The notes below the pieces were generated by a model. The model saw only the letters and a program-made list of their open reading frames with translations, ran no database searches and was not told the origin of the DNA. Both the position numbers and the translations under genes were made by a program. Positions 3,705 to 19,625 of a DNA stretch of 64,000 bases are shown here, piece by piece (within the stretch, counting starts at the first letter, position 1; every line of letters begins with the position of its first letter). Origin of the DNA: Pararhodobacter sp. Its GTDB lineage: Bacteria; Pseudomonadota; Alphaproteobacteria; Rhodobacterales; Rhodobacteraceae. The DNA is taken from contig JAFIEK010000018.1 in NCBI GenBank assembly GCA_020832545.1, positions 1 through 64,000 of the forward strand. Direction: 5' to 3'.

Positions 3705-5300
3705 ATGAAACTCTACCAGACTATAGCATCATCGACCCTGGCCACTGTTGTGGCCGTGACGTTCGCGGCGCAAGTGCAGGCGCAGGAGAACGTGTTGCGA
3801 TGGTCCTCGCAGTCTGCACTTGCCAATATCGATCCGCATGGCACAACCACCGCCCTGCCTCTGTCGATCTTCAGCAATGTCTATGAACCACTTGTCGGGC
3901 TGAACTCCGATATGGAACTGGTGCCGGTGCTTGCCGAAAGCTGGGAGGTTGTGAACCCGACCACCTGGCGCTTCAAGCTGCGCGAGGGCGTCACCTTTCA
4001 CAACGGCAACACTTTCAACGCCGATGATGTGATCTTTTCGATGGAGCGGGTTGGCAACCGCTATTCCTTCCTCCGCGACCGGGTTTCGATGATCGAAGAG
4101 ATGGTCAGGGTCGACGATTACACGATCGAATTCATCACCCGCGAGCCCTATCCGATCCTGCCGCAGATGTGGACGTCGATCTACATGATGGACAAGGAAT
4201 GGGCCGAGGAAAACGACGCAACCGTTCCGTCAAACTCTGTCGAGAATATCGAGAGCTATGCCGGGCAGCATTCCAACGGCACAGGCCCGTTCCGGATCAC
4301 CGAGCGGGTGCCCGAAACGCGCACAGTGTTCGAGCCCTTCGCAGACTACTGGGATGAGGTGGAGCATAATCTTGACCGCGTTGTCTACATCCCGATCACC
4401 CAGGACGGTACTCGCGTCGCCGCGCTCTTGTCGGGCGAGATCGACATGATGTATCCGGTTCCGATTCAGGACATCGAGCGGTTGCAGTCCAACGCGGGCA
4501 CTGATGTGCTGATCCAGCCCGAGTTGCGCACCATCATGCTGGGCATGGACCAGAACCGCGATGTCGCCCTTCATACCAACACCGGTGACAACCCCTTCAA
4601 GGACCGGCGCGTTCGGCAGGCGGTTTATCAGGCGATCAACATTGATGCCATTCAGGACCGCATCATGAATGGCCTGTCTGAACCTGCGGCCACTCTGATT
4701 TCGCCACTGCTCTTCCCACCTGCGGGCGAAATGGAGCGTCACCCCTTCGACCCTGAAGCATCGCGCGCGCTTCTGGCCGAGGCGGGCTATCCAGACGGGT
4801 TTCAGACGGCACTGGTCTGCCCCAACAACCGCTATGTCAATGATGAGCGGACCTGTCAGGCGGTGACATCCATGCTGGCGCGTGTCGGTATCGAGGTTGA
4901 ACTGCGCACCATGAATGTCACCCAGTACTGGGGTGTCGTCGGTCGCCCGGTTCAGGACTTTGCCATGTATATGATGGGCTGGACGCCGGGCGGGCTGGAC
5001 AGCTACTCGGTATTGTTCAACCTGATGGGCAGCTGGGATGAGGAATCTGGCCGTGGGCGCATCAACAACGGCGATTTCGCGAATGACCGGATCGATGAGA
5101 TCATCGCTTTGGTAGAAAGTGAAACCGACACCGAGATCCGCGATGCGCTGATCATGGAAGCCTACCAGATCGTTCATGATGAGGTGTACTATCTGCCGCT
5201 GCATCAGCAAACCGTGGTCTGGGGCGTCCGGGATGGTATCGCGGTCACCCAGCGCGCCGACGACTACTTCCAGTTCAGAACGGCCCGGTTCACCGACTGA
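3705..5300 (+). CDS. Dipeptide/oligopeptide-type ABC transporter substrate-binding protein (SBP_bac_5)
   Basis: Periplasmic binding protein of a peptide/nickel-class (DppA/OppA) ABC importer, 531 residues. A Sec signal peptide of about 27 residues ends at QVQAQE. The mature protein opens with LRWSSQSALANIDPHGT, typical of SBP family 5, followed by the NVYEPLVG and FKLREGVTFHNGN motifs. The start is the ATG at 3705 behind a GGGGAG ribosome-binding site. It lies between the M20 hydrolase and the permeases, so transporter and hydrolase are co-expressed. A strong hairpin follows the stop codon. The ligand is unknown; a peptide, an N-acyl amino acid or another amide are all possible. Confidence 0.92.
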   Translation: MKLYQTIASSTLATVVAVTFAAQVQAQENVLRWSSQSALANIDPHGTTTALPLSIFSNVYEPLVGLNSDMELVPVLAESWEVVNPTTWRFKLREGVTFHNGNTFNADDVIFSMERVGNRYSFLRDRVSMIEEMVRVDDYTIEFITREPYPILPQMWTSIYMMDKEWAEENDATVPSNSVENIESYAGQHSNGTGPFRITERVPETRTVFEPFADYWDEVEHNLDRVVYIPITQDGTRVAALLSGEIDMMYPVPIQDIERLQSNAGTDVLIQPELRTIMLGMDQNRDVALHTNTGDNPFKDRRVRQAVYQAINIDAIQDRIMNGLSEPAATLISPLLFPPAGEMERHPFDPEASRALLAEAGYPDGFQTALVCPNNRYVNDERTCQAVTSMLARVGIEVELRTMNVTQYWGVVGRPVQDFAMYMMGWTPGGLDSYSVLFNLMGSWDEESGRGRINNGDFANDRIDEIIALVESETDTEIRDALIMEAYQIVHDEVYYLPLHQQTVVWGVRDGIAVTQRADDYFQFRTARFTD

Positions 5301-5334
5301 CCGGCGCAATCCACGCCTGAATACAGGTGCCCGT

Positions 5335-5369
5335 CTGCCGGGAACCCCCTCTGAACGGGTTCCCGGCAG
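5335..5369 (+). other. Intercistronic hairpin after binding-protein gene
   Basis: A 13-bp perfect inverted repeat (CTGCCGGGAACCC at 5335-5347, GGGTTCCCGGCAG at 5357-5369) with a 9-nt loop, 34 bp after the binding-protein stop and 21 bp before the permease start. There is no U-run. Such hairpins protect the upstream mRNA from 3' decay or reduce read-through, so that binding protein exceeds membrane subunits (known for malE-malF type operons; inferred here). Confidence 0.75.
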
Positions 5370-5390
5370 CATCCTATCAAAGGTAACGCC

Positions 5391-6386
5391 ATGATCCGCT
5401 ACGTTTCGGGCCGGTTGACCCAGTCCTTGCTCGTCATGTTCATTGTCGCCGCTGTCGCCTTCGCCCTCTTTGGTTTCGTCGGCGATCCGATCCGGCAGAT
5501 GATCACCGAAGACGCCTCTCAGGCCGAGATCGATCGCCTGCGCGAGATCATGGGTCTGAATGATTCCGTGCCGGTTCAGTTCTGGCGCTACATCTCGGGG
5601 GCGGTTCAGGGCGATTTCGGGGTTTCCTACCATCACAAACGCCCGGTCGGCACGCTGATCGCGGAACGCCTGCCCGCCACGTTCGAGCTGGCGGGGCTGT
5701 CGGTGCTGCTTTCCGTGGTGATCGGCATTCCGCTTGGTGTCTACACAGGCCTGCACCGTCACGGACGGCTGGCGCGGGGCCTGATGGCGGCGTCCCTTGT
5801 CGGTGTGTCGATCCCCACATTTCTGCTGGGCATTCTGCTGATCTACCTCTTCTCGGTGATCCTTGGCTGGTTGCCATCTTTCGGGCGGGGCGAAACCGTG
5901 GCGGTGCTTGGCGGTTTCTGGACCACCGGATTTCTGACCACCTCGGGGCTGCGCTCTCTCATCCTGCCGTCCATCACCCTGGCGTTGTTCCAGACCACGA
6001 TGGTCATGCGCCTTGTACGGGCCGAGATGCTGGACGTGATGCGCGCTGACTACATCAAGTTTGCGCGGGCGCGCGGCCTTGGCACCCGGACGGTTCATTT
6101 TCGCCATGCGCTGAAAAACACGCTCATGCCGGTGGTGACGGTCATCGGCCTTCAGCTTGGCAGCGTGATCGCCTTTGCCATCATAACGGAAAGTGTCTTT
6201 CAGTGGCCCGGAATGGGGCGGCTGTTTCTGCAATCGATCCAGCAGGTCGATATCCCCGTGATGTCAGCCTACCTGATCATGATTGCCTTCTTCTTTGTGG
6301 TCATCAACCTGATCACCGATCTGGCCTATTACAGCATCGACCCGCGCCTGCGCGCCGGGGCGCTGAAGGGAAATGCCCATGCCTGA
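5391..6386 (+). CDS. ABC transporter permease, DppB/OppB type
   Basis: First membrane subunit of the peptide-class ABC importer, 331 residues with about six hydrophobic segments. The N-terminus (MIRYVSGRLTQSLLVMF) and the GLNDSVPVQFWRYISGAVQGDFG region are typical of DppB. The EAA-like loop (DYIKFARARGLG...RHALKN) lies at about 218-242. Its 3' end overlaps the next permease by 8 bp, which suggests translational coupling. It acts with the following permease and the fused ATPase. Confidence 0.92.
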   Translation: MIRYVSGRLTQSLLVMFIVAAVAFALFGFVGDPIRQMITEDASQAEIDRLREIMGLNDSVPVQFWRYISGAVQGDFGVSYHHKRPVGTLIAERLPATFELAGLSVLLSVVIGIPLGVYTGLHRHGRLARGLMAASLVGVSIPTFLLGILLIYLFSVILGWLPSFGRGETVAVLGGFWTTGFLTTSGLRSLILPSITLALFQTTMVMRLVRAEMLDVMRADYIKFARARGLGTRTVHFRHALKNTLMPVVTVIGLQLGSVIAFAIITESVFQWPGMGRLFLQSIQQVDIPVMSAYLIMIAFFFVVINLITDLAYYSIDPRLRAGALKGNAHA

Positions 6387-7317
6387 TACCCCCGCACACA
6401 GCGAACCCTCGCGCTGGCAGCGTATCCGCCAAAGCGACCTCGCACTCAGCTTCCTTGCGTCAAAGGTCACGGTCGCGGCGGCGTTTGTGGCGGTGGTGAT
6501 GATCGCAGCCTCGGTCGGGGCGGCGCTGATCGCACCCCACAACCCCTACGACATGGCCGCAATCGACATCTTTGACTCGATGCTGCCGCCCGTTTGGGAA
6601 GACGGCGGCGAGCGCCGGTTTCTGCTTGGCACTGATTCCATCGGGCGCGATATCCTGTCGACCATTCTCTACGGCAGCCGCATGTCGATCTTCATAGGCC
6701 TGACGAGCGTTGCTTTGTCACTGGTGATCGGCGTGACGCTTGGCCTGATTGCTGGGTATCGCGGCGGGCTCTTGGATTCGATCATCATGCGCCTGGCCGA
6801 GGTTCAGCTGGCGCTGCCCACCATTCTGGTGGCGCTGCTGATCAACGGTATCCTGCGCGCGGTCGCACCACCCACGATGGTAAATGACGTGGCGGTGCTG
6901 GTCCTGATCCTGTCGATCGGGCTGAGCAACTGGGTGCAGTTCGCCCGCGCCGTCCGGGCATCCACCATGGTGGAGCGGGGGCAGGAATATGTGCTGGCGG
7001 TCCGGCTGATCGGGATTGGTCCGATGGCGATCATGTTCCGGCATATCCTGCCCAATGTCATGGGGCCGATCATGGTCATCGCGACGTTGAACCTTTCCGG
7101 CGCGATCCTGACGGAAGCGACGCTTTCTTTTCTGGGTGTCGGTGTTCCGTCGACCCGGCCTTCGCTCGGCACGCTGATCAATGTCGGGACCGACTATCTG
7201 TTCTCTGGTGCCTGGTGGATCACGATCTTCCCCGGTGCCGCGCTTGCGCTTCTGGTGCTGACGGTCAACCTTGTCGGTGACTGGCTGCGCGACGCGCTCA
7301 ACCCGACACTGGGGTAA
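6379..7317 (+). CDS. ABC transporter permease, DppC/OppC type
   Basis: Second membrane subunit of the peptide-class importer, about 312 residues. It has an N-terminal cytoplasmic stretch, a first hydrophobic segment around residues 30-50, a periplasmic loop with LGTDSIGRDILSTILYGSR, then five more segments. The EAA loop is EYVLAVRLIGIGPMAIMFRHILPN. Two in-frame ATGs are available, at 6373 and 6379. The ATG at 6379 fits the AAGGG ribosome-binding site at 6366-6370 better, with 8-nt spacing. The gene overlaps the upstream permease, and the ATPase gene starts 4 bp after its stop. Confidence 0.9.
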   Translation: MPDTPAHSEPSRWQRIRQSDLALSFLASKVTVAAAFVAVVMIAASVGAALIAPHNPYDMAAIDIFDSMLPPVWEDGGERRFLLGTDSIGRDILSTILYGSRMSIFIGLTSVALSLVIGVTLGLIAGYRGGLLDSIIMRLAEVQLALPTILVALLINGILRAVAPPTMVNDVAVLVLILSIGLSNWVQFARAVRASTMVERGQEYVLAVRLIGIGPMAIMFRHILPNVMGPIMVIATLNLSGAILTEATLSFLGVGVPSTRPSLGTLINVGTDYLFSGAWWITIFPGAALALLVLTVNLVGDWLRDALNPTLG

Positions 7318-7321
7318 CGGC

Positions 7322-9055
7322 ATGAGCCTTCTGGAACTGCGCGATCTCAAGATCCATTTCGACACAAGACGCAGCACCGTCGAGGCCGTGCGCGGCATCG
7401 ACCTGAGCGTGGAGCGTGGCGAAATTCTTGGCATCGTGGGTGAATCGGGTGCCGGAAAATCTACCATCGGCAATGCCGTCATCGGCCTGCTGGAACCGCC
7501 GGGCCGTATCGCCGGGGGTGAGGTCTGGTTTGATGGTGCGCGCATCGACACCCTGCCCGAGGCCGCGCTGCGCCGTATCCGGGGGCGGCGGATCGGGATG
7601 ATCTTTCAGGACCCGATGACCAGCCTCAACCCGCTGTTCACCATCGGCGACCAGATCGCCGAGACGATCTGCCGCCATACGGGGCAAAGCCGCACGGACG
7701 CGATGAAGAAAGCGATTGAACTGCTGCGTGAGGTCGGCATTCCTGACCCGGAAGCGCGCGTCAACGAGTATCCGCATCAGTTTTCGGGTGGGATGCGGCA
7801 GCGCGTGGTGATTACACTCGCCCTTTGCGCCGATCCTGATCTGGTGATCTGCGACGAGCCGACGACCGCGCTTGATGTGTCGGTGCAGGCGCAGATCCTT
7901 GCGCTGCTCAGGCGGCTTTGTCGCGACAGGAACCTTGGTGCGATCTTCATCACCCATGACATGGGTGTCATCTCTGAAGTGACCGACCGCGTCGCCGTCA
8001 TGTATCAGGGCAGGGTGATGGAAACGGGGCCTACGGCGGATGTGCTGTCGCGCCCCCAACATGCCTACAGCAAAAGCCTGCTGGCCGCTGTCCCGCGCGG
8101 CGATCTGCGTCTGCACCGCTTTCCGCAACTCGACTACCGAGAAGCGGGGGAAACCCGCGCCGCGAAAAAGGTGATCGATCTGGATACGCATTGGCTTGGT
8201 CGCCGCATGGATGAGAGGGTGCAGTCTGATACGCCGCTTATACAGGTCAAAGACCTGACGATGCGCTTTGTCAGCCATCATTCCATCATCCCTGCATGGC
8301 GCCGAAGTTTCACCGCTGTGCGGGATGTGAGCTTTGACATCCGCCGGGGCGAGACCTTTGGCCTTGTCGGCGAGAGCGGCTCGGGCAAATCTACCGTCGC
8401 CCGGATGATCGCGGGCCTTTATGACCCCAGCTTCGGGCGGGTTTTCTACGATGGTTCCGAGGTCGCTGGTCCCGAGGCGCAGCCAATGACGGCGGTTCAG
8501 CGTCAGCAGATCCAGATGATCTTTCAGGACCCGTTTTCATCGCTCAACCGGCGCAAAAGGGTCGGTGACATCATTGCTGAACCGATCCGGCATCACCGCC
8601 TTGCCACCGACCGTGCCGAGGTGCAGTCGATCGTCGGCGATCTGCTTGATCATGTGGGGCTGGGTGCCGCAGCCGCGCGGCACTATCCGCACGAGTTTTC
8701 CGGCGGGCAGCGTCAGCGGATTTCTATTGCGCGGGCGCTGGCCACCCGGCCGCAGTTCCTGATTTGTGATGAGCCGACATCCTCGCTCGATGTCTCCATT
8801 CAGGCGCAGATCCTGAACCTGCTGAAAAACCTGCAGGCAGATCTGGGTCTGACCATGCTGTTCATCAGCCATGACCTGCCGGTGATCCGCCAGATGTGTG
8901 ACCGCATCGGCGTTATGAAAGCGGGCGAACTGGTGGAACTGGCCCCGGCCGAACAGCTATTCGAGGCCCCGCGGCACGCCTATACGGCTGAACTGCTGTC
9001 GCTGATGCCTCAGGTTGCGTCTGCCCCTGCCGCAGATCGCGACGTCATGCCGTAA
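7322..9055 (+). CDS. Fused double ABC ATPase (DppD-DppF type)
   Basis: Energises the peptide-class importer. One polypeptide of 577 residues carries two nucleotide-binding domains, each usually a separate protein. Domain 1 (about 1-260) has Walker A GESGAGKST, signature FSGGMRQR and Walker B LVICDEPTTALD. Domain 2 (about 300-560) has GESGSGKST, FSGGQRQR and FLICDEPTSSLD. Each half ends with the oligopeptide-transporter C-terminal region. The frame is open further upstream, but the ATG at 7322 (MSLLELRDLKIHF) is the sensible start because it follows the permease stop by 4 bp. The operon ends here, 10 bp from the convergent LysR gene. Confidence 0.93.
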   Translation: MSLLELRDLKIHFDTRRSTVEAVRGIDLSVERGEILGIVGESGAGKSTIGNAVIGLLEPPGRIAGGEVWFDGARIDTLPEAALRRIRGRRIGMIFQDPMTSLNPLFTIGDQIAETICRHTGQSRTDAMKKAIELLREVGIPDPEARVNEYPHQFSGGMRQRVVITLALCADPDLVICDEPTTALDVSVQAQILALLRRLCRDRNLGAIFITHDMGVISEVTDRVAVMYQGRVMETGPTADVLSRPQHAYSKSLLAAVPRGDLRLHRFPQLDYREAGETRAAKKVIDLDTHWLGRRMDERVQSDTPLIQVKDLTMRFVSHHSIIPAWRRSFTAVRDVSFDIRRGETFGLVGESGSGKSTVARMIAGLYDPSFGRVFYDGSEVAGPEAQPMTAVQRQQIQMIFQDPFSSLNRRKRVGDIIAEPIRHHRLATDRAEVQSIVGDLLDHVGLGAAAARHYPHEFSGGQRQRISIARALATRPQFLICDEPTSSLDVSIQAQILNLLKNLQADLGLTMLFISHDLPVIRQMCDRIGVMKAGELVELAPAEQLFEAPRHAYTAELLSLMPQVASAPAADRDVMP

Positions 9056-9064
9056 TCCGCCGGT

Positions 9065-10036
9065 TCATTCGTCGCTCAAGGGGGGCGCGGCCGCATGCGT
9101 TTGCCCCGGCAGGCGGACTTCCATCCAGTCCGGGCGGTAGGTCACGCCGTCATGCATTTCCCGGATATGCCGCCGCAGCATATCCATGAACCGGTTTGCC
9201 AGGGGTGCTGCGATACGTTCGCGTTGCCGGAACGCCGAAAAGGTAAACTCGATCACCGGATCGAACGGGATGGCAACCACATCCGGCCAGAACTGTTGCC
9301 GCACACCCAGCGGTTCAACGATGGCAACACCAACACCGCGCGATACCAGCGAATTCGCCTCGGCCGAGGCGAACACCTCGATGCGCATCTTCCGGTTCAC
9401 GCGAAACTGCTCGAACACCCCGTCGGTGATGTGGCGCATCCGGCTGTTGCGGGTGAACGAGATGAATTCTTCGCCCTCAAAATCCTTCGGCCCGACACGG
9501 GCGCGGGAGGCCAGCCGGTGGCCCTTCGGCACGATACAGACCGAACTTGCGTGAAAGAGGGGTTCGATCTTCAAAGACGGATGCTGATACTGCGTCACCG
9601 AGAACCCGATATCGACATTGCTGCCCAGCACATCCGGGCCGACATTCGATGACATGTCCAGCAGCACATCGACACCTGGGTTCTCTTTCGCAAATTCCGC
9701 CACCGCATCGGCTACCAGCGTCAGCCCGATGGTTGAGGCGGTGATGATGCGCAGCTCACCGGTGCGGAATGTGCGCAGGTCCTCGGCGAAGCGCTCGACA
9801 TCGGCGAGCGAGGCGAAGAGGCGCCGTACCTCGTTGTAGAGCAGTCGCGCCTCATCGGTCGGAAGCAGCCGCCGCTTCTCGCGGTGGAAAAGCGTCAGTT
9901 TCAGGTCAATTTCCAGACCGGCCAGCATTTTGCTCATGGCGGGCTGTGTCACGAAGATCCGGTTGGCGGCTTCGGTCACGGTGCCTGTTTCCATGAACTG
10001 GATGAAGGCCTCTAGCTGTCGGTGGGTGATGCGCAA
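9065..10036 (-). CDS. LysR-family transcriptional regulator
   Basis: LysR-type regulator, 323 residues, with an N-terminal winged helix-turn-helix at about 1-60 (ITHRQLEAFIQFMETGTVTE, then TQPAMSKML) and a co-inducer-binding domain of the periplasmic-binding-protein fold at about 90-300. The start is a TTG at 10036, supported by a near-perfect ribosome-binding site: reading the - strand, AAAGGAGG lies 6 nt before the TTG. It is the last gene of the - strand catabolic arm, 79 bp after the amidase. It probably controls the divergent promoter at 14071-14337 and perhaps the M20/Dpp operon (inference). Confidence 0.92.
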   Translation of the reverse strand: MRITHRQLEAFIQFMETGTVTEAANRIFVTQPAMSKMLAGLEIDLKLTLFHREKRRLLPTDEARLLYNEVRRLFASLADVERFAEDLRTFRTGELRIITASTIGLTLVADAVAEFAKENPGVDVLLDMSSNVGPDVLGSNVDIGFSVTQYQHPSLKIEPLFHASSVCIVPKGHRLASRARVGPKDFEGEEFISFTRNSRMRHITDGVFEQFRVNRKMRIEVFASAEANSLVSRGVGVAIVEPLGVRQQFWPDVVAIPFDPVIEFTFSAFRQRERIAAPLANRFMDMLRRHIREMHDGVTYRPDWMEVRLPGQTHAAAPPLSDE

Positions 10037-10115: not shown

Positions 10116-11549
10116 TCAACCTGCTGCCGGGGGCCAACTTCCTGCCCAAGGCATCAGCGCCTCGATCGCCGCAGCGACCGCGAGCAACCGCGCCTCACTG
10201 TGCCAGGGGCCGACAATCTGCATGCCGATCGGGATACCTTTTGACGACATTCCCACCGGGACCGACATTGCCGGGTGTCCGCTGGCGTTTTGCAACACCG
10301 TGTAGGGATACCACGCCTCGCGCAGGGGGCCATGTTCGACCCCGTCCACAATCAGCGGTTCGTCCTGCTTGTGCTCGGCGGCCAATGAGGGGGTTGCGAT
10401 GGTCGGAGTGATGTAGATATCGGCCCCGTCGAACTGCCGCTCGACTTCATGGAAAATGCTGGTCCGTGCCCGCAATGCCATAGCCAATGCGTCATAGGTA
10501 TGCTGCGCGCCGGGTGTCAGTGACAGCCGCGCAGTGCGGTCCATCCGTGCACCATGCTCGTGCAGCAGATGGCCAAAGCGGGCATACTGATAGGCACGCA
10601 TGTAGATCAGCGCATTATCAAGGTCATGCACCGGCGCGTCGATCACCCCGGCATTCACCGCACCGGCATCGGTCATCGCCTCTACCGCCGCTTTCACCGC
10701 AGCCTCAACTTCGGGGTCAACCCAGTCGTTCACAGTGCGCATCATCAGCCGCAAGCGCAGACCTTTGAGCGCGGAAATCGGGTCGTCCGGCAGATTGACC
10801 AACGCTGTGCTGCCGCCCAGCGACCAGGGGTCGCGCCGGTCCGGCCCCTTCATGGCGTTGAAGCCAAGTACCATGTCGGCGATGGACCGCGCCATCACCC
10901 CGATACAGGTGAAAGAGCCGAAGACATCGGTTGTTGTCTCATGCGGGATGGCCCCCCAAGTGGGTTTGATCCCGGCAACCCCACAGGCTGAGGCCGGGAT
11001 GCGCCCTGATCCGGCCCCGTCAGAGGTGACATGCAGCGGCCCGAAGCCCATCGCCGCGCCGATACCCGCCCCGCCCGACGAGCCGCCGCAACTGCGGCTC
11101 AGATCCCATGGGTTGCGGCTGATGCCCTGTGTGGGGCAATCCGTCAGCACCTTGTGGCCGAACTCCGGGGTCGTGGTCTTGGCAAAAGGGATTGCGCCCT
11201 TGCGGCGTAGCCGGGCGATGGCCTCGGCATCGTGATCGGCGATCACGCCTTCATAGGCGAACGAGCCCATTTCCAGCGGCAGCCCCCTGACCGCCAGAAG
11301 ATCCTTGGCGGTGACCGGCAGGCCCTGCAACGCGCCCGGTTCCTCACCCCGGGCCAGCGCCGCGTCGCGCGCCGCGGCCTCGGCCATGGCGGCCTCGGGG
11401 TCCACGTGGGCGATGCCGTTGGTCTGGCCGTCCAGCTTTTCAACACGGTCCAGCACGGCGCGCATGAGGGTCGTGGCTTTGATGTCACCTGACTGAAGCT
11501 TCGGCAGGAGGTCTGTGGCCGTCATTCGGCAGAGTTCATCATCATGCAT
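10116..11549 (-). CDS. Amidase signature family hydrolase
   Basis: Hydrolyses a carboxylic amide to acid plus ammonia or amine, 477 residues. The Ser-cisSer-Lys machinery is visible: the lysine in VTAKDLLAVRGLP near residue 80, the cis-serine in CGGSSGGAG near 160, and the nucleophile serine in SDGAGSGRIPAS near 178. The last motif differs slightly from the usual GGGSIR form. The ATG at 11549 has a GGAGG site 8 nt upstream; an internal ATG at 11525 is a weaker option. It sits downstream of the amidohydrolase-fold gene and upstream of the LysR gene in the - strand arm. Substrate unknown. It could also be labelled a GatA-like protein, but gatB/gatC are absent and the context is catabolic. Confidence 0.9.
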   Translation of the reverse strand: MHDDELCRMTATDLLPKLQSGDIKATTLMRAVLDRVEKLDGQTNGIAHVDPEAAMAEAAARDAALARGEEPGALQGLPVTAKDLLAVRGLPLEMGSFAYEGVIADHDAEAIARLRRKGAIPFAKTTTPEFGHKVLTDCPTQGISRNPWDLSRSCGGSSGGAGIGAAMGFGPLHVTSDGAGSGRIPASACGVAGIKPTWGAIPHETTTDVFGSFTCIGVMARSIADMVLGFNAMKGPDRRDPWSLGGSTALVNLPDDPISALKGLRLRLMMRTVNDWVDPEVEAAVKAAVEAMTDAGAVNAGVIDAPVHDLDNALIYMRAYQYARFGHLLHEHGARMDRTARLSLTPGAQHTYDALAMALRARTSIFHEVERQFDGADIYITPTIATPSLAAEHKQDEPLIVDGVEHGPLREAWYPYTVLQNASGHPAMSVPVGMSSKGIPIGMQIVGPWHSEARLLAVAAAIEALMPWAGSWPPAAG

Positions 11550-11609: not shown

Positions 11610-12458
11610 TCACAGCCGCAGGAATGCGCGCGCATTTCCCGACAACCAGCGATCGGCGATATCGGCACCGATCGGCAGGTTGCGCACTTCGTCGATGACG
11701 CGGCCCATGGGCATCATCGGCCAGGCGGTGCCAACGATCATCCTGTCTTTCAGGATGGTCCGCCCATACTGCATTAGCGGCCCATAGCCCGAATGCTCGA
11801 CATTCAGCAGCTTGGGCCGCATCGCCACCAGTCCGATCCACAGGTTCGGATGCCGCCACGCGACGGCCAGAAGCTCGTCTACCCAAGGCCAGCCCGGCGG
11901 CGCGGCGCAGACCCGCAGCTCCGGAAAGTCGCAAAGCACCCGGTCCAGCATCGCGGGCCTGCCAAAATCCGGCGAGGATTTCAGCGAGAAGTTCACGCCG
12001 ACATGGATGTTCACAGGGATATCCAGCTCTACGCATTTCGCATAAAGCGGGTACATCCGTCGGTCGTCAATGGCCAGCCGGTTCTCGAAGCACTGAAGGT
12101 TCAGCCCCTTCAGGCCCAGTTCCCGCACCCCATGTTCAAGTTCGCGCACGGCGGTCATGCCCTTGTTGGGATCGACCCCGGCAAAACCGACAAAGCGACC
12201 CGGATGCGCGGCCACCACCTCGGCCACCGCCTCATTCGTGACGCGGCCGCCGAACGTTGTCTCGACATCGCGGCCCTTGAGTACTGTCAGCCCGATGCCC
12301 GCGTCGTCGCAGGCGGAAAACCACTGCTCCAGTGTCATCTCTCCACGCTCCGCCGCTGCCTCAGAGGCGGCATAGACGCGCCGGTAGTTTGCCAGATGGC
12401 TTGCGTCGGGTAGCTTCAGTGACGCAATCGGCGGCGTCGCGCCATAGTCGATGATCAT
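11610..12458 (-). CDS. Amidohydrolase_2-fold protein lacking most metal ligands
   Basis: Belongs to the amidohydrolase_2 (ACMSD/resorcylate decarboxylase-like) TIM-barrel family, 282 residues. The family's metal-binding D-x-H-x-H after strand 1 reads D4-Y-G-A-T here. The strand-6 histidine (AHGG type) is replaced in CAAPPGWPW, and the strand-8 aspartate (GTDYP type) in VGTAWPMMP. Only the strand-5 histidine (VNIHVG) remains. The fold signature PWVDELLAVAWRHPNLWIGL is intact. The start is the ATG at 12458 (MIIDYGATPP), 10 bp after the CoA-ligase stop; an open frame further upstream overlaps that gene and is not used. It may be a non-catalytic partner or use different chemistry (inference). Confidence 0.85.
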   Translation of the reverse strand: MIIDYGATPPIASLKLPDASHLANYRRVYAASEAAAERGEMTLEQWFSACDDAGIGLTVLKGRDVETTFGGRVTNEAVAEVVAAHPGRFVGFAGVDPNKGMTAVRELEHGVRELGLKGLNLQCFENRLAIDDRRMYPLYAKCVELDIPVNIHVGVNFSLKSSPDFGRPAMLDRVLCDFPELRVCAAPPGWPWVDELLAVAWRHPNLWIGLVAMRPKLLNVEHSGYGPLMQYGRTILKDRMIVGTAWPMMPMGRVIDEVRNLPIGADIADRWLSGNARAFLRL

Positions 12459-12468
12459 GGATTGCCCC

Positions 12469-14070
12469 TTATCGCCAGATGTTCTCGACCCGGTCAAAAG
12501 AGCCGGTGCGGTGGTCCGTGCGCGCCTTCGCCAGTTCGGCTTTCGCTACTTTGAACGAGGTGGTCCGCGGCATGTTCTCGATGAATTCGAAGTAGCGGGG
12601 GATCTTGAATGCGGCGAGCCTCTGAGCGGCGTAATCCGAGATCCGGTGGACAAGTGCGGCATCCGGCTGGTGGCCGTTGCGCAAGGTGAGATACGCTTTG
12701 ACCTCTTCGCCGCGCAGATCATCGGGCACGGGGATCAAAGCGACCTCCTCAATCTCATCCATGTCGCGCAGCACGCCCTCTACCTCGCGGCAGGCGATGT
12801 TCTCACCGGCGCGGCGGATCATGTCTTTCTTTCGGCCGACAATATAGTGAAAACCCTGCGCGTCGCGCCTGAACAGATCGCCGGTATGGAACCAGCCGTC
12901 CCTGAGAGCGTCGGCGGTGGCCTCGGGGTTATTGTAATAGCCCTGAAATATGCCCTCGCCCCGGATCAGCAATTCGCCGGTTTCACCGTCGGGCACGTCT
13001 GCGCCGCGCTCATCGATTACTCTGGTTTCGCGAAAGGCGGTTGCGATGCCGCAACTGCCTGATCCGACCATCTCTGCCGCTTCCATCGGCACGTATAGGC
13101 CTGATCCGATCTCGGTCATGCCAAAAGCTTCTCTGGCAATGAAGCCATATCGCGCCTCGATCTCGGCATGAACCGAGGCGCGGACGCCGTAGATATTCGC
13201 CCGGACAACCCGGTTTTTCCGGTCATGTGGTGCAGGGGGTTGCTTGCTGGCCGCTTCAGGAAAGAGGCAGAATTCGATACGGTGCTCACACAGCCAACGC
13301 GCGAATTTCGAGGCGCTCTGTCTGCGCCCGACAACCAGGGTGCCACGCTGATAGATTGCCATGAGAAGCAGCCATTGCGGGTCCATATAGGTGAAGGGCG
13401 TGGTGGCAAGTATCCGCCGGAAGCGCTGCCCGTCGCGCCAGGCATTAACCATGCCTGTCGTCAGCCAGTAGCGGTGCGTCAGCATGCATCCTTTAGGCAA
13501 ACCCGTAGTGCCAGAAGTATACTGGATATTCATGAGCGTATCGCGGTGCAGATACGGTGACGGGCAGGCCACGGCCTCTGCCCCATTCCACCGATCCTGC
13601 CAGTCCACGCTGTTGACGATAAGTGCCTGTATCCCCGGATCGTGCTCTTGCAGGACCGCCGCCAGTTCATCATGGACAAGCAGCAGCTTTGCGCCGGAAT
13701 TCTCTACCACATAGGCAAGTTCGCGCGTGGAATACCGGGTGTTCACCGGCACCATGATCGCGCCGATCCGTGCCAGTCCAAGCCAGATCAGCGGCATTTC
13801 GGGAACATTGGGCAACATCACCGCCACCCGGTCCCCGTGCCGCACACCGGCTGCCGCAAGCAGTGCGCCCATCTTCAAGCTGTCACGTTTCACCCCACCA
13901 TAGGTTGCCGTCAGCCCCTCGTCGAAGAACTCCCACAAGGTGGCATCCGGACATTCGTCAGCGGCGGTGTCCAGCAGATGCGGAATGGTTTCTGGAAACG
14001 CGGCCGCTTCAATGGTGGCCCGGCGTTCTTCAGGGGTCTGGTCAGTAGTGGTCAGGGGAACGGGTGTCAT
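12469..14070 (-). CDS. AMP-dependent acyl-CoA synthetase (CaiC-like)
   Basis: ATP-dependent carboxylate-CoA ligase of the ANL superfamily, 533 residues. The P-loop motif YTSGTTGLPKGC is at about 184-195, the adenylate-binding motif AFGMTEIG near 313, the YHTGD-type motif as FHTGDLFRRD near 402, and the hinge with GRKKDMIRRAGENIA near 420. The C-terminal acyl lysine is in RYFEFIENMPRTTSFKVAK. It most resembles crotonobetaine/carnitine-CoA ligases, but the acid is not predictable. It is the first gene of the - strand arm, facing the spermidine-type transporter across a shared 267-bp region. It could activate the acid released by the downstream amidase. Confidence 0.9.
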   Translation of the reverse strand: MTPVPLTTTDQTPEERRATIEAAAFPETIPHLLDTAADECPDATLWEFFDEGLTATYGGVKRDSLKMGALLAAAGVRHGDRVAVMLPNVPEMPLIWLGLARIGAIMVPVNTRYSTRELAYVVENSGAKLLLVHDELAAVLQEHDPGIQALIVNSVDWQDRWNGAEAVACPSPYLHRDTLMNIQYTSGTTGLPKGCMLTHRYWLTTGMVNAWRDGQRFRRILATTPFTYMDPQWLLLMAIYQRGTLVVGRRQSASKFARWLCEHRIEFCLFPEAASKQPPAPHDRKNRVVRANIYGVRASVHAEIEARYGFIAREAFGMTEIGSGLYVPMEAAEMVGSGSCGIATAFRETRVIDERGADVPDGETGELLIRGEGIFQGYYNNPEATADALRDGWFHTGDLFRRDAQGFHYIVGRKKDMIRRAGENIACREVEGVLRDMDEIEEVALIPVPDDLRGEEVKAYLTLRNGHQPDAALVHRISDYAAQRLAAFKIPRYFEFIENMPRTTSFKVAKAELAKARTDHRTGSFDRVENIWR

Positions 14071-14337: not shown

Positions 14338-15477
14338 ATGTTCGACCGTATTGCCACAGATCGAATGAACCGGAGCCGCCAAGTGCCCAGTCATAACCCA
14401 TCAAGCGATCTCATCCTGCAGATCGAGGCCGTCACCAAAACCTTTGATGCAAACCCTGCAGTGGATTGTGTCGATCTGGACGTAAGGCGCGGCGAGTTCG
14501 TGACCCTGCTGGGCCCGTCGGGCTGCGGCAAATCCACGCTGTTGCGGATGATCGCCGGGTTTGAGACGCCGACATCGGGGCGCATCAAAATCAGCGGGCG
14601 CGACATCTCGCGGCTGGCACCCTATGACCGTGAAATCGGCATGGTGTTTCAGAACCTTGCGCTCTTTCCGCATATGAATGTCTACGACAATGTGGCCTTT
14701 GGCCTGCGCGCTCGCAACCGGACCAAGGGCATGGATGGCAAGGTGCGCGAGATGCTGTCGCTCGTCGGCCTGGAAGGGTTCGAGGAGCGGCGCACCGGCC
14801 AGATATCCGGCGGCCAGCGCCAGCGGGTGGCTTTGGCGCGCTCTCTTGTGACATCGCCCGAGCTGCTGTTGCTGGATGAGCCGCTTTCGGCGCTCGACCT
14901 CAAGCTGCGTCGCCAGCTTCAGGTCGAGCTGAAGCGCATCCAGCAGGAAACCGGCATCACGTTCATTTTTGTTACCCATGATCAGGAAGAGGCCCTGTCG
15001 ATGTCGGACAGGATCGCCGTGATGAATGCGGGCCGGGTTGAGCAGTTCGGCACCTCTGTCGAGACCTATCACCATCCCCGGACCGAGTTTGTGGCGCGTT
15101 TCGTGGGTGAGACCAACTTGCTGAAGGGCGTCATCGTCGAAAGCGAAGGGGCGAATGCGCTGTTGGAACTTTCCGGCACGGGAGCGCGGGTGCCGGTGCC
15201 GGGCGGGGCGCAATCCGTGGCAGGGCAGGGGGGGCAGGTGACCATCTCCATCCGGCCCGAACATGTAAATCTGGGTGCACCAGACGAACATCTTGTCCCG
15301 GCGCGCGTGCGCTCGCACAGCTTTTCCGGCGCGACAATCACTTACACGCTTGACAGCGACGCCGGCCCGCTGCTGGCGCAGGTGGCCTTTAAAGCTGGGG
15401 GGGCGCACCCATTGGCAGTGGGCGAAGCCGTCTCGGTCGGATGGCCGCAAACCTCCGTCACGACAATCCCTGCGTAA
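14338..15477 (+). CDS. Spermidine/putrescine-type ABC transporter ATP-binding protein
   Basis: PotA-like ATPase, 379 residues. Walker A GPSGCGKST is near residue 60, signature ISGGQRQRVALARSL near 158, Walker B LLLLDEPLSALD near 177, and the switch His in FVTHDQEEALSMSDR. A C-terminal TOBE domain spans about 290-370. The start is ATG 14338; ATG 14365 is possible, and neither has a strong ribosome-binding site. It heads an operon of ATPase, binding protein, two permeases, FAD oxidase and ThDP enzyme. The ligand is probably an amine or another small cationic or organic compound; polyamine specificity is not proven. Confidence 0.9.
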   Translation: MFDRIATDRMNRSRQVPSHNPSSDLILQIEAVTKTFDANPAVDCVDLDVRRGEFVTLLGPSGCGKSTLLRMIAGFETPTSGRIKISGRDISRLAPYDREIGMVFQNLALFPHMNVYDNVAFGLRARNRTKGMDGKVREMLSLVGLEGFEERRTGQISGGQRQRVALARSLVTSPELLLLDEPLSALDLKLRRQLQVELKRIQQETGITFIFVTHDQEEALSMSDRIAVMNAGRVEQFGTSVETYHHPRTEFVARFVGETNLLKGVIVESEGANALLELSGTGARVPVPGGAQSVAGQGGQVTISIRPEHVNLGAPDEHLVPARVRSHSFSGATITYTLDSDAGPLLAQVAFKAGGAHPLAVGEAVSVGWPQTSVTTIPA

Positions 15478-15561
15478 CCCGGTCGCGACCCGCTTCGCGC
15501 AACTTCGCCACGACCATCCCCGCAAAGCCGGGGCAATTTTAACCCACAAGGAGGATGACCA

Positions 15562-16620
15562 ATGAAACTGACCAGACGTGCAACCATTGCCGGGGCGCTT
15601 GGCTCTGCTGCGGCCCTGTCGCTGCCCGGGCGGCTGATGGCGCAATCGAATACGCTGCTGCATGCCTCTTGGGGCGGCGGCGTCGGCTCAACTTGGAACG
15701 CGGCTTTTGCCGATCCTTTCGCGGCCGAGACCGGCGCCAGCGTGCGCATTGTCGATGTGCCCAACCCCGAGGCGCAACTGCGTGCTCAGGCTGGAAACCC
15801 GCAGTATCACTCGGCCATCGGCACCTTTGTTCAGGGTGTGAACATGATGCGCGATGATATGCTTGAGACCTTCTCGATCGATGAACTGCCCGAGATGCGC
15901 AACATCGACGAGAAGTACTGGCTCAAGACCGAGGATGGTCGCCTGGCCGGGATCACCCCCTATTTCGCCTATTACGGTATCGCGGTGAACACCAACGAGG
16001 CTTCGCTTGAAGACTTCACCTCATGGCGCAACCTCGCTGATGAGCGATGGGCGGACCGGCTGGGTATGACCCGCCCGATCTATCTGTCAACCTATGACCT
16101 GACGATGCTGAGCAAGGCCGCCGGGGGTGACGAATATGATATCGCAGGCGGGATGGAACTGCTGGAAGGGATGGCACGGAACGTTCTTATTGTCTCCAAC
16201 TCGCTTGCGCAGCAGAACACCATGCTGGAGCGTGGCGAGGTTGCGGCGATGCCGTTCTATTCAACCCGCATCTGGGCGATGCACGAGGCCGGGGTGCAGC
16301 ATGTCGACATGATAATCCCCGAAGAGGGCGCGCTTTTGCTGCCCTATGTCGTTGTCGCGCCCAAGGGGGTTGCCGACCGTGAGCAGGTGGCCGAATGGCT
16401 GAACTATATCGCCGGGGCGGCACCTCAGGAACGCGGCATGGCGATTTCAGGCTATATCCCGGCGAATTCTCAGGCCGTGGCCACAGATGAGATCATTGCC
16501 AAGATCGGCATGACTTACGAGGAGCTTCTGGGCAGGCTCTACCAGCCTGACTGGGGCCATATCGCGGCCAACCAGCAAGATACGGTTGCGGCGATTGATC
16601 AGATGCTTGCCCGCTTCTGA
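15562..16620 (+). CDS. Spermidine/putrescine-type ABC transporter substrate-binding protein
   Basis: Periplasmic binding protein of the PotD/SBP_bac_8 class, 352 residues. The N-terminus carries a Tat-like motif (MKLTRRATIAG) and a hydrophobic stretch, with a cleavage region around LMAQSN. The mature part opens with LLHASWGGGVGSTWNAAF, typical of this class. The ATG at 15562 follows a strong AAGGAGG site. The order ATPase, binding protein, permease, permease is conserved in many alphaproteobacterial transporters of this class. A GC-rich hairpin follows the stop. Confidence 0.92.
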   Translation: MKLTRRATIAGALGSAAALSLPGRLMAQSNTLLHASWGGGVGSTWNAAFADPFAAETGASVRIVDVPNPEAQLRAQAGNPQYHSAIGTFVQGVNMMRDDMLETFSIDELPEMRNIDEKYWLKTEDGRLAGITPYFAYYGIAVNTNEASLEDFTSWRNLADERWADRLGMTRPIYLSTYDLTMLSKAAGGDEYDIAGGMELLEGMARNVLIVSNSLAQQNTMLERGEVAAMPFYSTRIWAMHEAGVQHVDMIIPEEGALLLPYVVVAPKGVADREQVAEWLNYIAGAAPQERGMAISGYIPANSQAVATDEIIAKIGMTYEELLGRLYQPDWGHIAANQQDTVAAIDQMLARF

Positions 16621-16628
16621 CCTGCTTT

Positions 16629-16651
16629 CCGGCCCGGGCTGACCGGGCCGG
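16629..16651 (+). other. Intercistronic hairpin after binding-protein gene
   Basis: A 9-bp perfect inverted repeat (CCGGCCCGG at 16629-16637, CCGGGCCGG at 16643-16651) with a 5-nt loop, 8 bp after the binding-protein stop and before the permease. No U-run. It has the same placement as the hairpins at 41-68 and 5335-5369, suggesting a shared way of setting subunit ratios. Confidence 0.7.
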
Positions 16652-16714
16652 CCCCTTCCCGTGACGCAGCACCGCCTGACGCCTGTGCGTCAGCCATTCC
16701 GGAGTGGACAACCC

Positions 16715-17554
16715 GTGCCCAAACCTCTTCGAACCGCCCTGTTGCTGGCACCTTCCGCGATCCTGATGGGTGTTTTCCTCATTGGTCTGGTGCGGCTGGT
16801 GTCCTCGTCGCTGATGATCGACGGGCAGTTCGACATCACCCACTATGTCGATATCCTGAACCGGCCTGACTATGTGCAGATGCTGGGCCGTACCCTGCGC
16901 ACCGCAGCACTGACAACGCTTTTCTCGCTGCTGATCGGCTTTCCCACCGCCTATTATGTCGCCCGCTACAAGGGGAACCGGAACTTCCTGCTACTTCTCA
17001 TCATCTTTCCGTGGCTCGTCTCCATCGTGGTGCGCAGCTACGGCTGGATGGTGATCCTGGGGCCGCGCGGGCTGATCAACAGCTTCATCACATGGACAGG
17101 GCTGGTCGAGCGGCCCTTGCGGCTGATGTACAACGATTTCGGGGTGATTCTGGGCCTTGTGCATGTGCTCTGCCCTTTCATGATCATCGCCATTCTGTCG
17201 GTGCTGATGCAGATCCCGCGCAGCCTTGAAGAAGCCTCCATGAGCCTCGGTGGCCGGCCCGCCTACAGCTTCCGCACGGTGCTTTTGCCGCTGTCACTGC
17301 CCGGTATCCTGACCGGGATCACGCTGGTCTACCTGATGGCGACCGGGGCCATCGTTACGCCGCTACTGCTGGGTGGCCTTCGCAACACCATGCTTGGCAC
17401 GGAGATCTTTCAGGAGGTCATGCATTTCTTCAATTATCCGAAAGCGGCAGCACTGGCCACTGTGCTGCTTGTCACGGCGCTGGTGGTGGTCATCCCCATC
17501 CAGATTTTTGAGCGATGGCTTGCCCGGCGCCTGCGTGAGGGAGAGAGCCATTGA
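16715..17554 (+). CDS. Spermidine/putrescine-type ABC transporter permease (PotB-like)
   Basis: First membrane subunit of the spermidine-class importer, about 279 residues with six hydrophobic segments. The EAA loop EEASMSLGGRPAYSFRTVLLPLSLPG lies about two-thirds along the protein. The start is a GTG at 16715 (reading MPKPLRTALLLAP) behind GGAGTGG; another in-frame GTG at 16661 would add 18 residues but lacks a ribosome-binding site and would start right at the hairpin. The 3' end overlaps the next permease by 4 bp. Confidence 0.88.
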   Translation: MPKPLRTALLLAPSAILMGVFLIGLVRLVSSSLMIDGQFDITHYVDILNRPDYVQMLGRTLRTAALTTLFSLLIGFPTAYYVARYKGNRNFLLLLIIFPWLVSIVVRSYGWMVILGPRGLINSFITWTGLVERPLRLMYNDFGVILGLVHVLCPFMIIAILSVLMQIPRSLEEASMSLGGRPAYSFRTVLLPLSLPGILTGITLVYLMATGAIVTPLLLGGLRNTMLGTEIFQEVMHFFNYPKAAALATVLLVTALVVVIPIQIFERWLARRLREGESH

Positions 17555-18327
17555 TTACCCGTCTCATCGCCCTCTCCGTTCTCCTGATCCTGCCCCTGCC
17601 GATTGTGATTGTGGTGCTGTCGTCCTTTACCTCGGCAGGCTATCTTTCCTTTCCCATCCACGGGGTGTCGCTGCGCTGGTATGGCGAGTTCCTCGGTTCG
17701 GCGGATTGGCTGCGCGTGCTCGGCGTTTCGGCGGTTCTGGCCCTGATCGGCGCGTTCGTCAGTACGGCGGCCTCGTTCGGCGCCGCTTGGGCGGTGGTCC
17801 GGCACCGGATGCGGTTCGGCGCAACCTATGAGACCATTCTGCTGACACCGCTCATCTTCCCGCATGCGGCGATCGGGGTCATCATGATCGTCACCCTGTC
17901 CAGCCTTGGCTGGCTGGGCACCTTCACCGGGTTGGTTCTGGTGCATTGCATCCTGACCATACCTTATGCCTATCGCCCGATTGTCGCAGCCCTGCGCAAA
18001 TCCGACCCGGCCCTTGAAGAAGCGGCGGCCAGCCTTGGCGCACGCCCTTGGCGGACCTTCTGGACAGTATCGCTTCCGGCAGCCCGCCCGGGCCTTGTGA
18101 CCTCGTTCCTGTTCAGTTTCATCATCTCTTTTGACGAGGTGACGGTGACCCTGTTCGTCGTTGGCCCACATGTCATGACACTGCCCGTGCAGGTCTTCTC
18201 GGAAGTGCTGGAAAGCGCCAGCCCGGTTATCGCTGCCGTGTCGGCCACGCTGGTGCTGTTCACCACGGCTATCGTCTTTGTCCTTGACCGCTTTATCGGC
18301 CTGCAGTTCTTCGTCGAGCGCGATTGA
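17551..18327 (+). CDS. Spermidine/putrescine-type ABC transporter permease (PotC-like)
   Basis: Second membrane subunit of the same importer, 258 residues, six hydrophobic segments. The EAA loop is EEAAASLGARPWRTFWTVSLPAARPG. The start is a TTG at 17551, inside the stop of the previous gene (TTGA overlap), supported by a GGGAGAGAG site just upstream; no ATG is nearby. Its TGA shares one base with the ATG of the FAD oxidase gene, so the operon is translationally coupled. Confidence 0.9.
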   Translation: MITRLIALSVLLILPLPIVIVVLSSFTSAGYLSFPIHGVSLRWYGEFLGSADWLRVLGVSAVLALIGAFVSTAASFGAAWAVVRHRMRFGATYETILLTPLIFPHAAIGVIMIVTLSSLGWLGTFTGLVLVHCILTIPYAYRPIVAALRKSDPALEEAAASLGARPWRTFWTVSLPAARPGLVTSFLFSFIISFDEVTVTLFVVGPHVMTLPVQVFSEVLESASPVIAAVSATLVLFTTAIVFVLDRFIGLQFFVERD

Positions 18328-19625
18328 TGGGGGCATTGTCAGACCAGCCCTACTGGTGGGAAGAGGCACCGCCACGGCGGCTGGGGCACCATCCGCCCGC
18401 CCGCTCGGATGTTGTCATCATCGGTGGCGGCTATACCGGGTTGAATGCGGCGCTGACCCTGCGCCGGGCAGGTGTCGGGGTGACGGTGCTGGAGGCCGGG
18501 GATTTCGGTGAAGGCGCCAGCACCCGGAACGCGGGGCATGTCTCCAGCGGCGTTAATCTCGGCAAGTCCGCTGCCCAATCCAATGTGCGTTCGCCGCTGG
18601 AACAAAGCCTGCCCGCCGGGGTTTTTCAGTCGCTCAGGGATGAGGCCGCCGCCTCGTTCGACTTTATTGAGGCCCGGCTGCGCGAACTGCCCGATGATGC
18701 GCAATACCGGCGCTCAGGCCGGGTGGTCTGCGCTTCGCTGCCGGTCCATTTCGCGGCAATGCGGCAGAAGTCAGTTTCAATGACGCGCGATGGTGTGCGC
18801 CTTTTCCCGCGTGATCAACAGCGCGCGGCCATCGGATCAGACCTGTTCCACGGGGTGATGACGATCGACCGGGCTGGGCAGCTTCACCCCGCAAAATACC
18901 TGCACGCGCTTGTGGACCGTACGTTGGCCGAAGGCGCGGTGCTTTGTGACAATCACCGCGTCACCAGCATAAAGCGCGAAGGGACGGGCTGGCGGCTGGA
19001 CGCGGGTGCGGCGCGGGTGAGCTGCGACAAGGTTCTGATCGCCACCAACGGCTATTGCGACGGGTTACTGCCTTGGTTACGCCGCCGCGTGATCCCGGCG
19101 GCCAGCTATATCGTGGTGACTGATGACCTTCCCGCAGGCATGATCGACACGATGTTGCCAGAGGGCCGCACGGCGGTCGATACAAAGCGGTTGCTCAGCT
19201 ATTTCCGCCCCACGCCAGACCGCCGCAGACTACTCTTCGGCGGGCGTGCCAGCCTGAATGCGCGCGATCCGCGACAGATCGCCCCGGAACTGGCGCGCCG
19301 CCTGCACGCGGTCTTTCCTGTCACACGCGGTATCGCAATGCGCCATGCATGGTCCGGGCAGATTGCCTTCACCTTTGACCTTCTGCCGCATCTGGGCGCG
19401 CATGAGGGAGTGGCCTATGCGCTGGGTTGCAACGGATCAGGCGTTGCGATGCAAAGTTTCCTTGGGCACAGGGCCGGGCAGGGACTGGCGGGCGGCGAGA
19501 CATCGCCATTCTGGAACCTTGGCTTTCCCACAATGCCGTTCTATCGCGAAACGCCGTGGTTCCTGCCTGCGATGACGGGCTGGTATCGGATGCGCGATGC
19601 GATCGACCGGCTGACCGGGCGTTGA
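18327..19625 (+). CDS. FAD-dependent oxidoreductase (DAO/gamma-glutamylputrescine oxidase-like)
   Basis: Flavoprotein amine or amino-acid oxidase of the DAO family, about 432 residues. The N-terminal segment (SDQPYWWEEAPP) is typical of PuuB-like oxidases. The dinucleotide-binding motif VVIIGGGYTGLNAALTL is at about 31-47, followed by GASTRNAGHVSSG. A C-terminal GCNGSGVAMQ segment closes the FAD site. The start is ATG 18327, sharing one base with the permease stop. Directly downstream of the transporter, it probably oxidises the imported amine or amino acid to an aldehyde or 2-keto acid (inference). The substrate is unknown. Confidence 0.88.
   Translation: MGALSDQPYWWEEAPPRRLGHHPPARSDVVIIGGGYTGLNAALTLRRAGVGVTVLEAGDFGEGASTRNAGHVSSGVNLGKSAAQSNVRSPLEQSLPAGVFQSLRDEAAASFDFIEARLRELPDDAQYRRSGRVVCASLPVHFAAMRQKSVSMTRDGVRLFPRDQQRAAIGSDLFHGVMTIDRAGQLHPAKYLHALVDRTLAEGAVLCDNHRVTSIKREGTGWRLDAGAARVSCDKVLIATNGYCDGLLPWLRRRVIPAASYIVVTDDLPAGMIDTMLPEGRTAVDTKRLLSYFRPTPDRRRLLFGGRASLNARDPRQIAPELARRLHAVFPVTRGIAMRHAWSGQIAFTFDLLPHLGAHEGVAYALGCNGSGVAMQSFLGHRAGQGLAGGETSPFWNLGFPTMPFYRETPWFLPAMTGWYRMRDAIDRLTGR

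Follow-up and report, generated by a model that had tools for sequence, protein, structure and literature searches.

An Amidohydro_2-fold protein clade that has lost most of its metal ligands and is linked to an AMP-dependent acyl-CoA ligase

It was found that an amidohydrolase-fold protein of a Pararhodobacter species, here called P0001, has four of the five canonical metal-ligand positions of its family replaced, that the loss extends through its clade, and that its constant partner in the genome is an AMP-dependent acyl-CoA ligase, not the amidase which adjoins it. The protein is probably no dead copy but a working metal-free enzyme of a degradation pathway. The more specific reading favored here, that P0001 is a functional metal-independent Amidohydro_2-fold enzyme whose substrate is the CoA thioester produced by the neighboring ligase, is given nearly an even chance. 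In a clade that is under strong selection, retains one His of the metal set, has a distant relative of solved structure, and nearly always has the ligase nearby, metal-free acyl-CoA chemistry in this barrel becomes a testable question, and the ligase linkage points to where the substrate should be sought. The family concerned, PF04909, numbers more than 100,000 proteins, and an excerpt of a paper calls it largely uncharacterised (PMC10811679).

The gene and its neighborhood

The window, that is, the whole stretch of 64,000 nucleotides that was analysed, contains the following genes around P0001.

3705..9055, plus strand: dipeptide-type ABC transporter (binding protein, two permeases, fused ATPases); the binding protein matches SBP_bac_5, and the permeases and ATPase were named from their translations
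9065..10036, minus strand: LysR-family regulator (Pfam LysR_substrate and HTH_1)
10116..11549, minus strand: amidase of the Amidase signature family (Pfam PF01425), an optional member
11610..12458, minus strand: P0001, the gene under study, 282 amino acids, ATG at 12458, stop codon at 11612-11610
12469..14070, minus strand: AMP-dependent acyl-CoA ligase (Pfam AMP-binding and AMP-binding_C), upstream of P0001
14338..18327, plus strand: spermidine/putrescine-type ABC transporter, divergent from the ligase, named potA/D/B/C from the translations and the recurrence of similar genes
18324..19625, plus strand: FAD-dependent oxidoreductase; the best NCBIfam match is the L-pipecolate oxidase AmaA, below the cut-off; its cluster occurs in 15 of the 80 loci described below

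A sequence-only reading of this DNA had placed P0001 between a CoA ligase and an amidase. Its coordinates for the gene are right, and this is indeed the arrangement; the gap is 10 bases to the ligase and 60 bases to the amidase, and all three genes lie on one strand.

Loss of the metal ligands

P0001 is a member of Amidohydro_2 (PF04909; 114.7 bits against a Pfam cut-off of 26.4, E 9.1e-33), and no NCBIfam model matched it at E 0.001. The family set of ligands is His, His, His, His, Asp. In the metal-dependent ACMSD-type subfamily these are the HxH on strand 1, a His each on strands 5 and 6, and the Asp on strand 8, of which P0001 has the strand-5 His only. Its strand 1 is M-I-I-D4-Y-G6-A-T8-P-P, strand 5 is V-N-I-H152, strand 6 is C-A-A-P187-P-G-W-P-W, and strand 8 is V-G-T-A245-W-P. 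In the same columns, all 14 metal-retaining relatives of one alignment read H,H,H,H,D, as do 20 of 20 in a second alignment with a larger set of them. Thus, the ligand columns are correctly aligned, and a misalignment was rejected as the source of the result. The sequence-only reading had held that the strand-1 HxH, the strand-6 His, and the strand-8 Asp were replaced with the strand-5 His kept, and the alignment to these controls bears it out. The five codons and the residues found there in the 80 clade sequences and in the controls are as follows.

12441..12443, minus strand: codon G6, first His position of the strand-1 HxH; S37/G36/A6/N1 in the clade, H in 20 of 20 controls
12435..12437, minus strand: codon T8, second His position of the strand-1 HxH; R45/T21/K10/V4 in the clade, H in 20 of 20 controls
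12003..12005, minus strand: codon H152, the strand-5 His and sole canonical ligand kept; H in 80 of 80
11898..11900, minus strand: codon P187, the strand-6 His position; P in 80 of 80 (favored by the search pattern) and in 18 of 18 found without a pattern
11724..11726, minus strand: codon A245, the strand-8 Asp position; A50/S23/G7 in the clade, D in 20 of 20 controls

I collected the clade in two ways. Whole-protein searches of 295 genomes of the family and 385 genomes of the class gave 18 clade members, P0001 included; an additional copy (G660:C88, 54%) lies outside this set of 18. A pattern-based scan of 84,980 species genomes gave 103 relatives, the best 80 of which were kept as loci. The clade alignment of 80 sequences consists of P0001 and 79 of these 80 loci, the frameshifted L121 being excluded. 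Since the scan patterns included PPG[WF]PW and GLN[LI]Q[CG]FE, the scan is biased toward P187, N120, Q122, and E125, and these four residues are present in all 18 members from the pattern-independent search. At the two ligand positions of strand 1 and at those of strands 6 and 8, the 80 clade sequences (from the best 80 of 103) are all without His, Asp, Glu, or Cys; position 6 is S/G/A/N, position 8 is R/T/K/V, position 187 is P, and position 245 is A/S/G, with H152 in 80 of 80.

The codon comparison of P0001 with orthologues of 79-88% identity points to purifying selection on the clade: dN/dS was 0.03-0.14 over nine pairs, with dS of 0.89-4.2, which is near saturation and makes the ratios rough. 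With these values and an open matched stretch in 79 of the 80 loci (only L121 is broken), a recent pseudogene was ruled out. The broken copy, at 9001-9869 of L121, is found in one Rhizobiales MAG, and its frameshift may come from a sequencing error or from decay.

In a midpoint-rooted tree of 73 sequences, the P0001 clade is supported (31 rows, 99/96; 30 rows, 100/96). It also occurs on plasmids: 44 plasmid records have a match that is 80-90% identical to P0001, mostly from Pseudosulfitobacter (43 records by name), and the close relatives there are annotated as plain "amidohydrolase". In the one plasmid record that was opened, CP069018.1 (L060) of Pseudosulfitobacter pseudonitzschiae, the ligase-amidohydrolase-amidase order is as in the window. 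Many of the 44 records were sampled with diatoms. A search by title or abstract within a partial collection found no literature on the clade.

Predicted structure and solved relatives

The sequence-only reading had proposed a structure prediction as a check, and this gave a confident barrel. The AlphaFold2 model of P0001 reached pLDDT 85.8 with 17 sequences, and pLDDT 95.1 and pTM 0.92 with 56 sequences; all eight strands of a (beta/alpha)8 barrel are present in the latter model. The closest structural matches of the predicted model fall in the Amidohydro_2 family. The best match among solved structures is BB4693 of Bordetella bronchiseptica (3irs/3k4w), an uncharacterised TIM-barrel protein which has the same fold over its whole length and 33% identity (for 3irs, Foldseek E 5.8e-19; Z 33.0, rmsd 2.4, 272 residues). 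It is followed by an uncharacterised clostridial amidohydrolase (Z 24.9) and then by decarboxylases (Z about 20-23). A phmmer search of PDB sequences likewise put BB4693 first with 125 bits, the next being decarboxylases of free acids with 39 bits. ACMSD, gamma-resorcylate decarboxylase, the 5-carboxyvanillate decarboxylase LigW, and the hydratase LigJ, all of which are metal-dependent, share the fold (Z about 20-23) and match weakly in sequence (39 bits or less).

BB4693 is likewise without most of the metal ligands, having Arg, Arg, Met, His, and Ala at the five positions (strand 1 is IDFRLRPP). However, its remaining His is that of strand 6, the one of strand 5 being lost, while in P0001 it is the reverse (G,T,H,P,A). 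In the tree, BB4693 joins L012 (100/100) outside the P0001 clade, in the same half of the midpoint-rooted tree, where a long-branch warning applies. Thus, with separate tree groups and different residue sets, P0001 does not belong to the BB4693/3irs group, and the aligned sequences indicate that the combination lost in the P0001 clade is different from the partial loss in BB4693. BB4693-type relatives were found in 1 of 385 genomes, and a literature search found no publication on BB4693. For L042-type relatives the count was 0 of 398 genomes, a set in which the query's own genome did not appear, and this zero carries no weight.

A precedent for a metal-free reading is LigI (2-pyrone-4,6-dicarboxylate lactonase, COG3618), which the excerpt of the above paper describes as a cofactor-free member of PF04909 (PMC10811679). 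A probable LigI homologue, 4i6k, matches the P0001 model by fold alone (Z 19.8), and no LigI is named among the 25 PDB sequence matches of P0001 at E up to 1. LigI keeps the strand-1 histidines. The dinuclear oxygenases AibH2 and SfbO were compared at the canonical ligand positions only, and these positions are replaced in P0001.

Linkage to the acyl-CoA ligase

Of the best 80 of 103 loci, 75 contain the ligase cluster, and the count is the same for an AMP-dependent ligase within 6.5 kb. A complete ligase ORF of at least 39% identity is present in 74 of the same best 80; the remaining ligase, in L122, is a further one of 41% identity, 45 bases away and running into the contig end. In four of the five loci without the cluster (L090, L093, L116, and L133), the contig leaves a short flank on one side or both. 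L108 is a genuine exception: the one ligase match there is partial (34%) and sits at the edge. Seven of the 295 family genomes have a ligase of at least 51% identity, and exactly these seven have a P0001 relative of at least 54%; in each, both genes are on one contig within 1.7 kb, and the next-best ligase has 43% identity. The ligase motifs are intact: of 75 aligned ligases, 75 have the P-loop Lys and 73 the C-terminal Lys.

The linkage is not confined to this clade. A sister group that keeps only the strand-6 His and the strand-8 Asp (V,N,Q,H,D in 19 loci, with L166 as the exception) has an AMP-dependent ligase within 6.5 kb in 15 of 20 loci. In another sister group (L142, L143, and L145), with Tyr, Leu, and Ser at strands 5, 6, and 8, the operon ends with an NDP-forming acyl-CoA synthetase in all three loci, and the fold of this CoA ligase is unrelated to that of the AMP-dependent ligase. 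The metal-retaining controls have an AMP-dependent ligase in 17 of 20 loci. Thus, the idea that the ligase linkage marks degenerate clades alone was rejected, and the argument shifts to the CoA chemistry of the wider branch.

The sequence-only reading had also offered P0001 as a binding partner of the ligase. The linkage to the ligase proved strong, in the 75 loci as well as in the seven genomes, but a dedicated protein-protein partner fits less well. Given that one sister group is accompanied by a ligase whose fold is unrelated, a shared CoA-thioester pathway is the better fit. Moreover, the ligase ORF closest to the P0001 relative is not adjacent but 150-3000 bases upstream in 30 of the best 80 of 103 loci.

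Residues of the catalytic face

A pseudoenzyme was another proposal of the sequence-only reading; P0001 might then bind or regulate the ligase without any catalysis of its own. The loss of four of five ligands and the near-constant pairing with one ligase clade are consistent with it, and a two-component enzyme of amidohydrolase-fold chains, AibH1H2, is described in an excerpt (PMC10811679). Besides the ligase arrangements given above, the barrel loops argue against it. With the faces assigned from the first AlphaFold2 model and Trp counted as polar, the 80 sequences have nine invariant polar residues in 72 catalytic-face positions (D64, D96, Q122, E125, D132, H152, N156, W192, and R214) and none in 30 opposite-face positions; N120 is added to them at a strand end. 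Mean conservation does not differ between the loops of the two faces (entropy 0.88 vs 0.93, p = 0.51), only the number of invariant polar residues does. The codons of the residues that may form a new pocket are as follows.

12084..12101, minus strand: codons N120-E125 after strand 4 (N120, Q122, E125), proposed pocket; present in 18 of 18 of the pattern-independent set, with K14, H14, and M12/F2 in 14 controls
11817..11819, minus strand: codon R214 following strand 7, an Arg proposed to bind the substrate; invariant in the 80 clade sequences, with S13 and R1 in 14 controls

N120, Q122, E125, N156, and P187 are found in none of the 14 metal-retaining controls, and R214 in one of them. Beyond the controls, N120 recurs in L012, N156 in L008 and L042 as well as in 4 of 19 sisters, and R214 in one of L008 and L042. 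N120, Q122, E125, H152, N156, and R214 may form a rebuilt polar pocket. Of the proposals of the sequence-only reading, metal-free chemistry is favored, with the metal set absent in 80 of 80 sequences and the catalytic face carrying fixed polar residues which are missing from the metal-retaining controls. A plain pseudoenzyme is made less likely by the fixed polar residues, and I regard it as a minor alternative.

The same residues bear on whether a metal may have been kept by other ligands. Alternative His or Asp ligands in the pocket were looked for, as they would speak against the sequence-only reading. The acids E125, D96, and D64 are invariant, as is the canonical ligand H152, and they share its face of the barrel, so P0001 might be a metalloenzyme with relocated ligands in which H152 together with E125, D96, or D64 holds the metal. 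However, D64 is common to 14 of 14 controls, and D96 to 14 of 14 controls and 18 of 19 sisters (D132 is likewise shared by 12 of 14 controls); E125 is the sole invariant acid of the catalytic-face loops without a counterpart in the controls, and H152 is their sole invariant His. With E125 the only new acid near H152, a relocated metal is poorly supported and rather improbable.

Proposed reaction

In the reading favored here, a metal-independent P0001 acting on the thioester, the acid would be either imported or released by upstream enzymes that vary among operons: an amidase, an amine oxidase-like flavoprotein with an aldehyde dehydrogenase, or a hydantoinase/lactamase-type hydrolase. The AMP-dependent ligase would convert the acid into its CoA thioester, on which P0001 would then act, most likely by hydrolysis or another cleavage (of a C-C or the thioester bond). 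H152 might serve as the acid/base, and E125, N120, Q122, N156, and R214 might replace the lost metal in substrate binding and polarisation.

The ligase linkage is silent on the order of the steps, and P0001 could act before the ligase. It would then be a metal-free enzyme, perhaps a decarboxylase, a lyase, or an isomerase, that takes a free acid, an amide, or an amine as its substrate and whose product the ligase activates. The linkage is equally strong under either order, the upstream modules vary, and the best solved sequence matches after BB4693 are the decarboxylases of free acids (39 bits). On the other hand, the characterised decarboxylases of the family are metal-dependent, ligases of two unrelated types accompany this branch of the family, and the metal-retaining relatives lie in operons with CoA-pathway genes. 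Action before the ligase thus seems unlikely.

The operons of the metal-retaining relatives may be compared with known systems. CouO, a member of the amidohydrolase superfamily, carries out the last step of CoA-dependent deacetylation in hydroxycinnamate operons, according to an excerpt of its description (PMC4737184), and an excerpt of another paper terms Atu1421 a beta-keto-thiolase (PMC7797058). An operon with an acyl-CoA ligase, a feature of amidohydrolases of the CouO and Atu1421 type, is found in the P0001 clade as well. Cleavage of an aryl beta-ketoacyl-CoA is a further mark of that type. Atu1421 is taken here to be amidohydrolase-like. The operons of the controls, that of L177 above all, resemble the hydroxycinnamate operons of CouO; the likeness is one of operons. 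Two control loci were opened (L177 and L189), and both have a MarR gene and a PRK12582-type ligase, with a 4-hydroxybenzoate 3-monooxygenase (PobA) in L177 and BadH- and BadI-type genes in L189. Metal-retaining relatives score up to 107 bits with P0001 (L013).

In the metal-retaining group, all 20 sequences carry H,H,H,H,D, and 18 of 20 loci have an enoyl-CoA hydratase-type gene, while in the P0001 clade the hydratase is found in 7 of the best 80 of 103 loci. Since the operons of the P0001 clade are mostly without it, the reaction of CouO is not simply transferable; either the reaction differs or the substrate already bears the needed group.

The amidase and other neighboring genes

A further proposal of the sequence-only reading, that P0001 is a binding partner of the amidase, did not hold as a general rule. 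The two genes adjoin in the window and in Roseobacter/Bosea-type loci, and a dedicated partner or chaperone of the amidase was considered. However, a same-strand amidase at least 45% identical to that of the window is present in just 19 of the best 80 of 103 loci, leaving 61 without one, which rules out the amidase as the general partner and makes this role very improbable for P0001. Any amidase-family match is found in 32 of the same best 80 loci, and the order varies, the amidase following the P0001 relative in some operons and preceding it in others.

Several alternative upstream modules were found in the loci: a polyamine-type ABC transporter with a flavin oxidoreductase, a PuuC-like aldehyde dehydrogenase with a CrtO/amine-oxidase-like flavoprotein, a class III aminotransferase with a histone-deacetylase-fold protein and TetR, and hydantoinase A/B with TctC. 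The PuuC-like aldehyde dehydrogenase, the class III aminotransferase, the deacetylase-fold protein, and the polyamine-type transporters nearby suggest amine-derived acids. Genes resembling the dipeptide-type transporter at 3705..9055 are near the P0001 relative in part of the loci, and in CP069018 the counterparts of the transporter genes at 14338..18327 are annotated as ABC transporter parts. A broader picture can be drawn only tentatively, and I consider it doubtful: in a widespread alphaproteobacterial and betaproteobacterial class, the barrel would have given up its metal and would now cleave acyl-CoA as a metal-free enzyme, in a two-gene module of ligase and hydrolase that serves many amide, amine, and lactam routes and processes an undescribed common acid intermediate.

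The window also encodes, at 19723-21261, a ThDP-dependent enzyme that matches the PRK07586 equivalog (620 bits, cut-off 363) and may belong to the pathway of P0001. Genes 44-45% identical to it are near the P0001 relative in L083, L087, and L090.

Other relatives

In L142, L143, and L145, the degenerate amidohydrolase-fold gene opens a dipeptide-transporter operon. Each Amidohydro_2 subgroup among L142-L194 has its own fixed five-position set (H,H,H,H,D; V,N,Q,H,D; or the group with Tyr, Leu, and Ser at strands 5, 6, and 8), indicating that the replacement of the metal site in Amidohydro_2 took more than one form. Five further relatives' loci were inspected: L144 has an AMP-dependent ligase, L151 has a gene matching the NDP-ligase profile, and L150, L152, and L153 have neither. 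The gene in L151 directly adjoins the P0001 relative, whose ligand positions read Y,S,H,H,N; this sequence is long-branched and weakly placed next to the P0001 clade. The genome of P0001 itself has a second PF04909 gene (L195, contig C37) with the HxH-type motif CDAHAHV. Thus, the same genome also carries a ligand-bearing relative.
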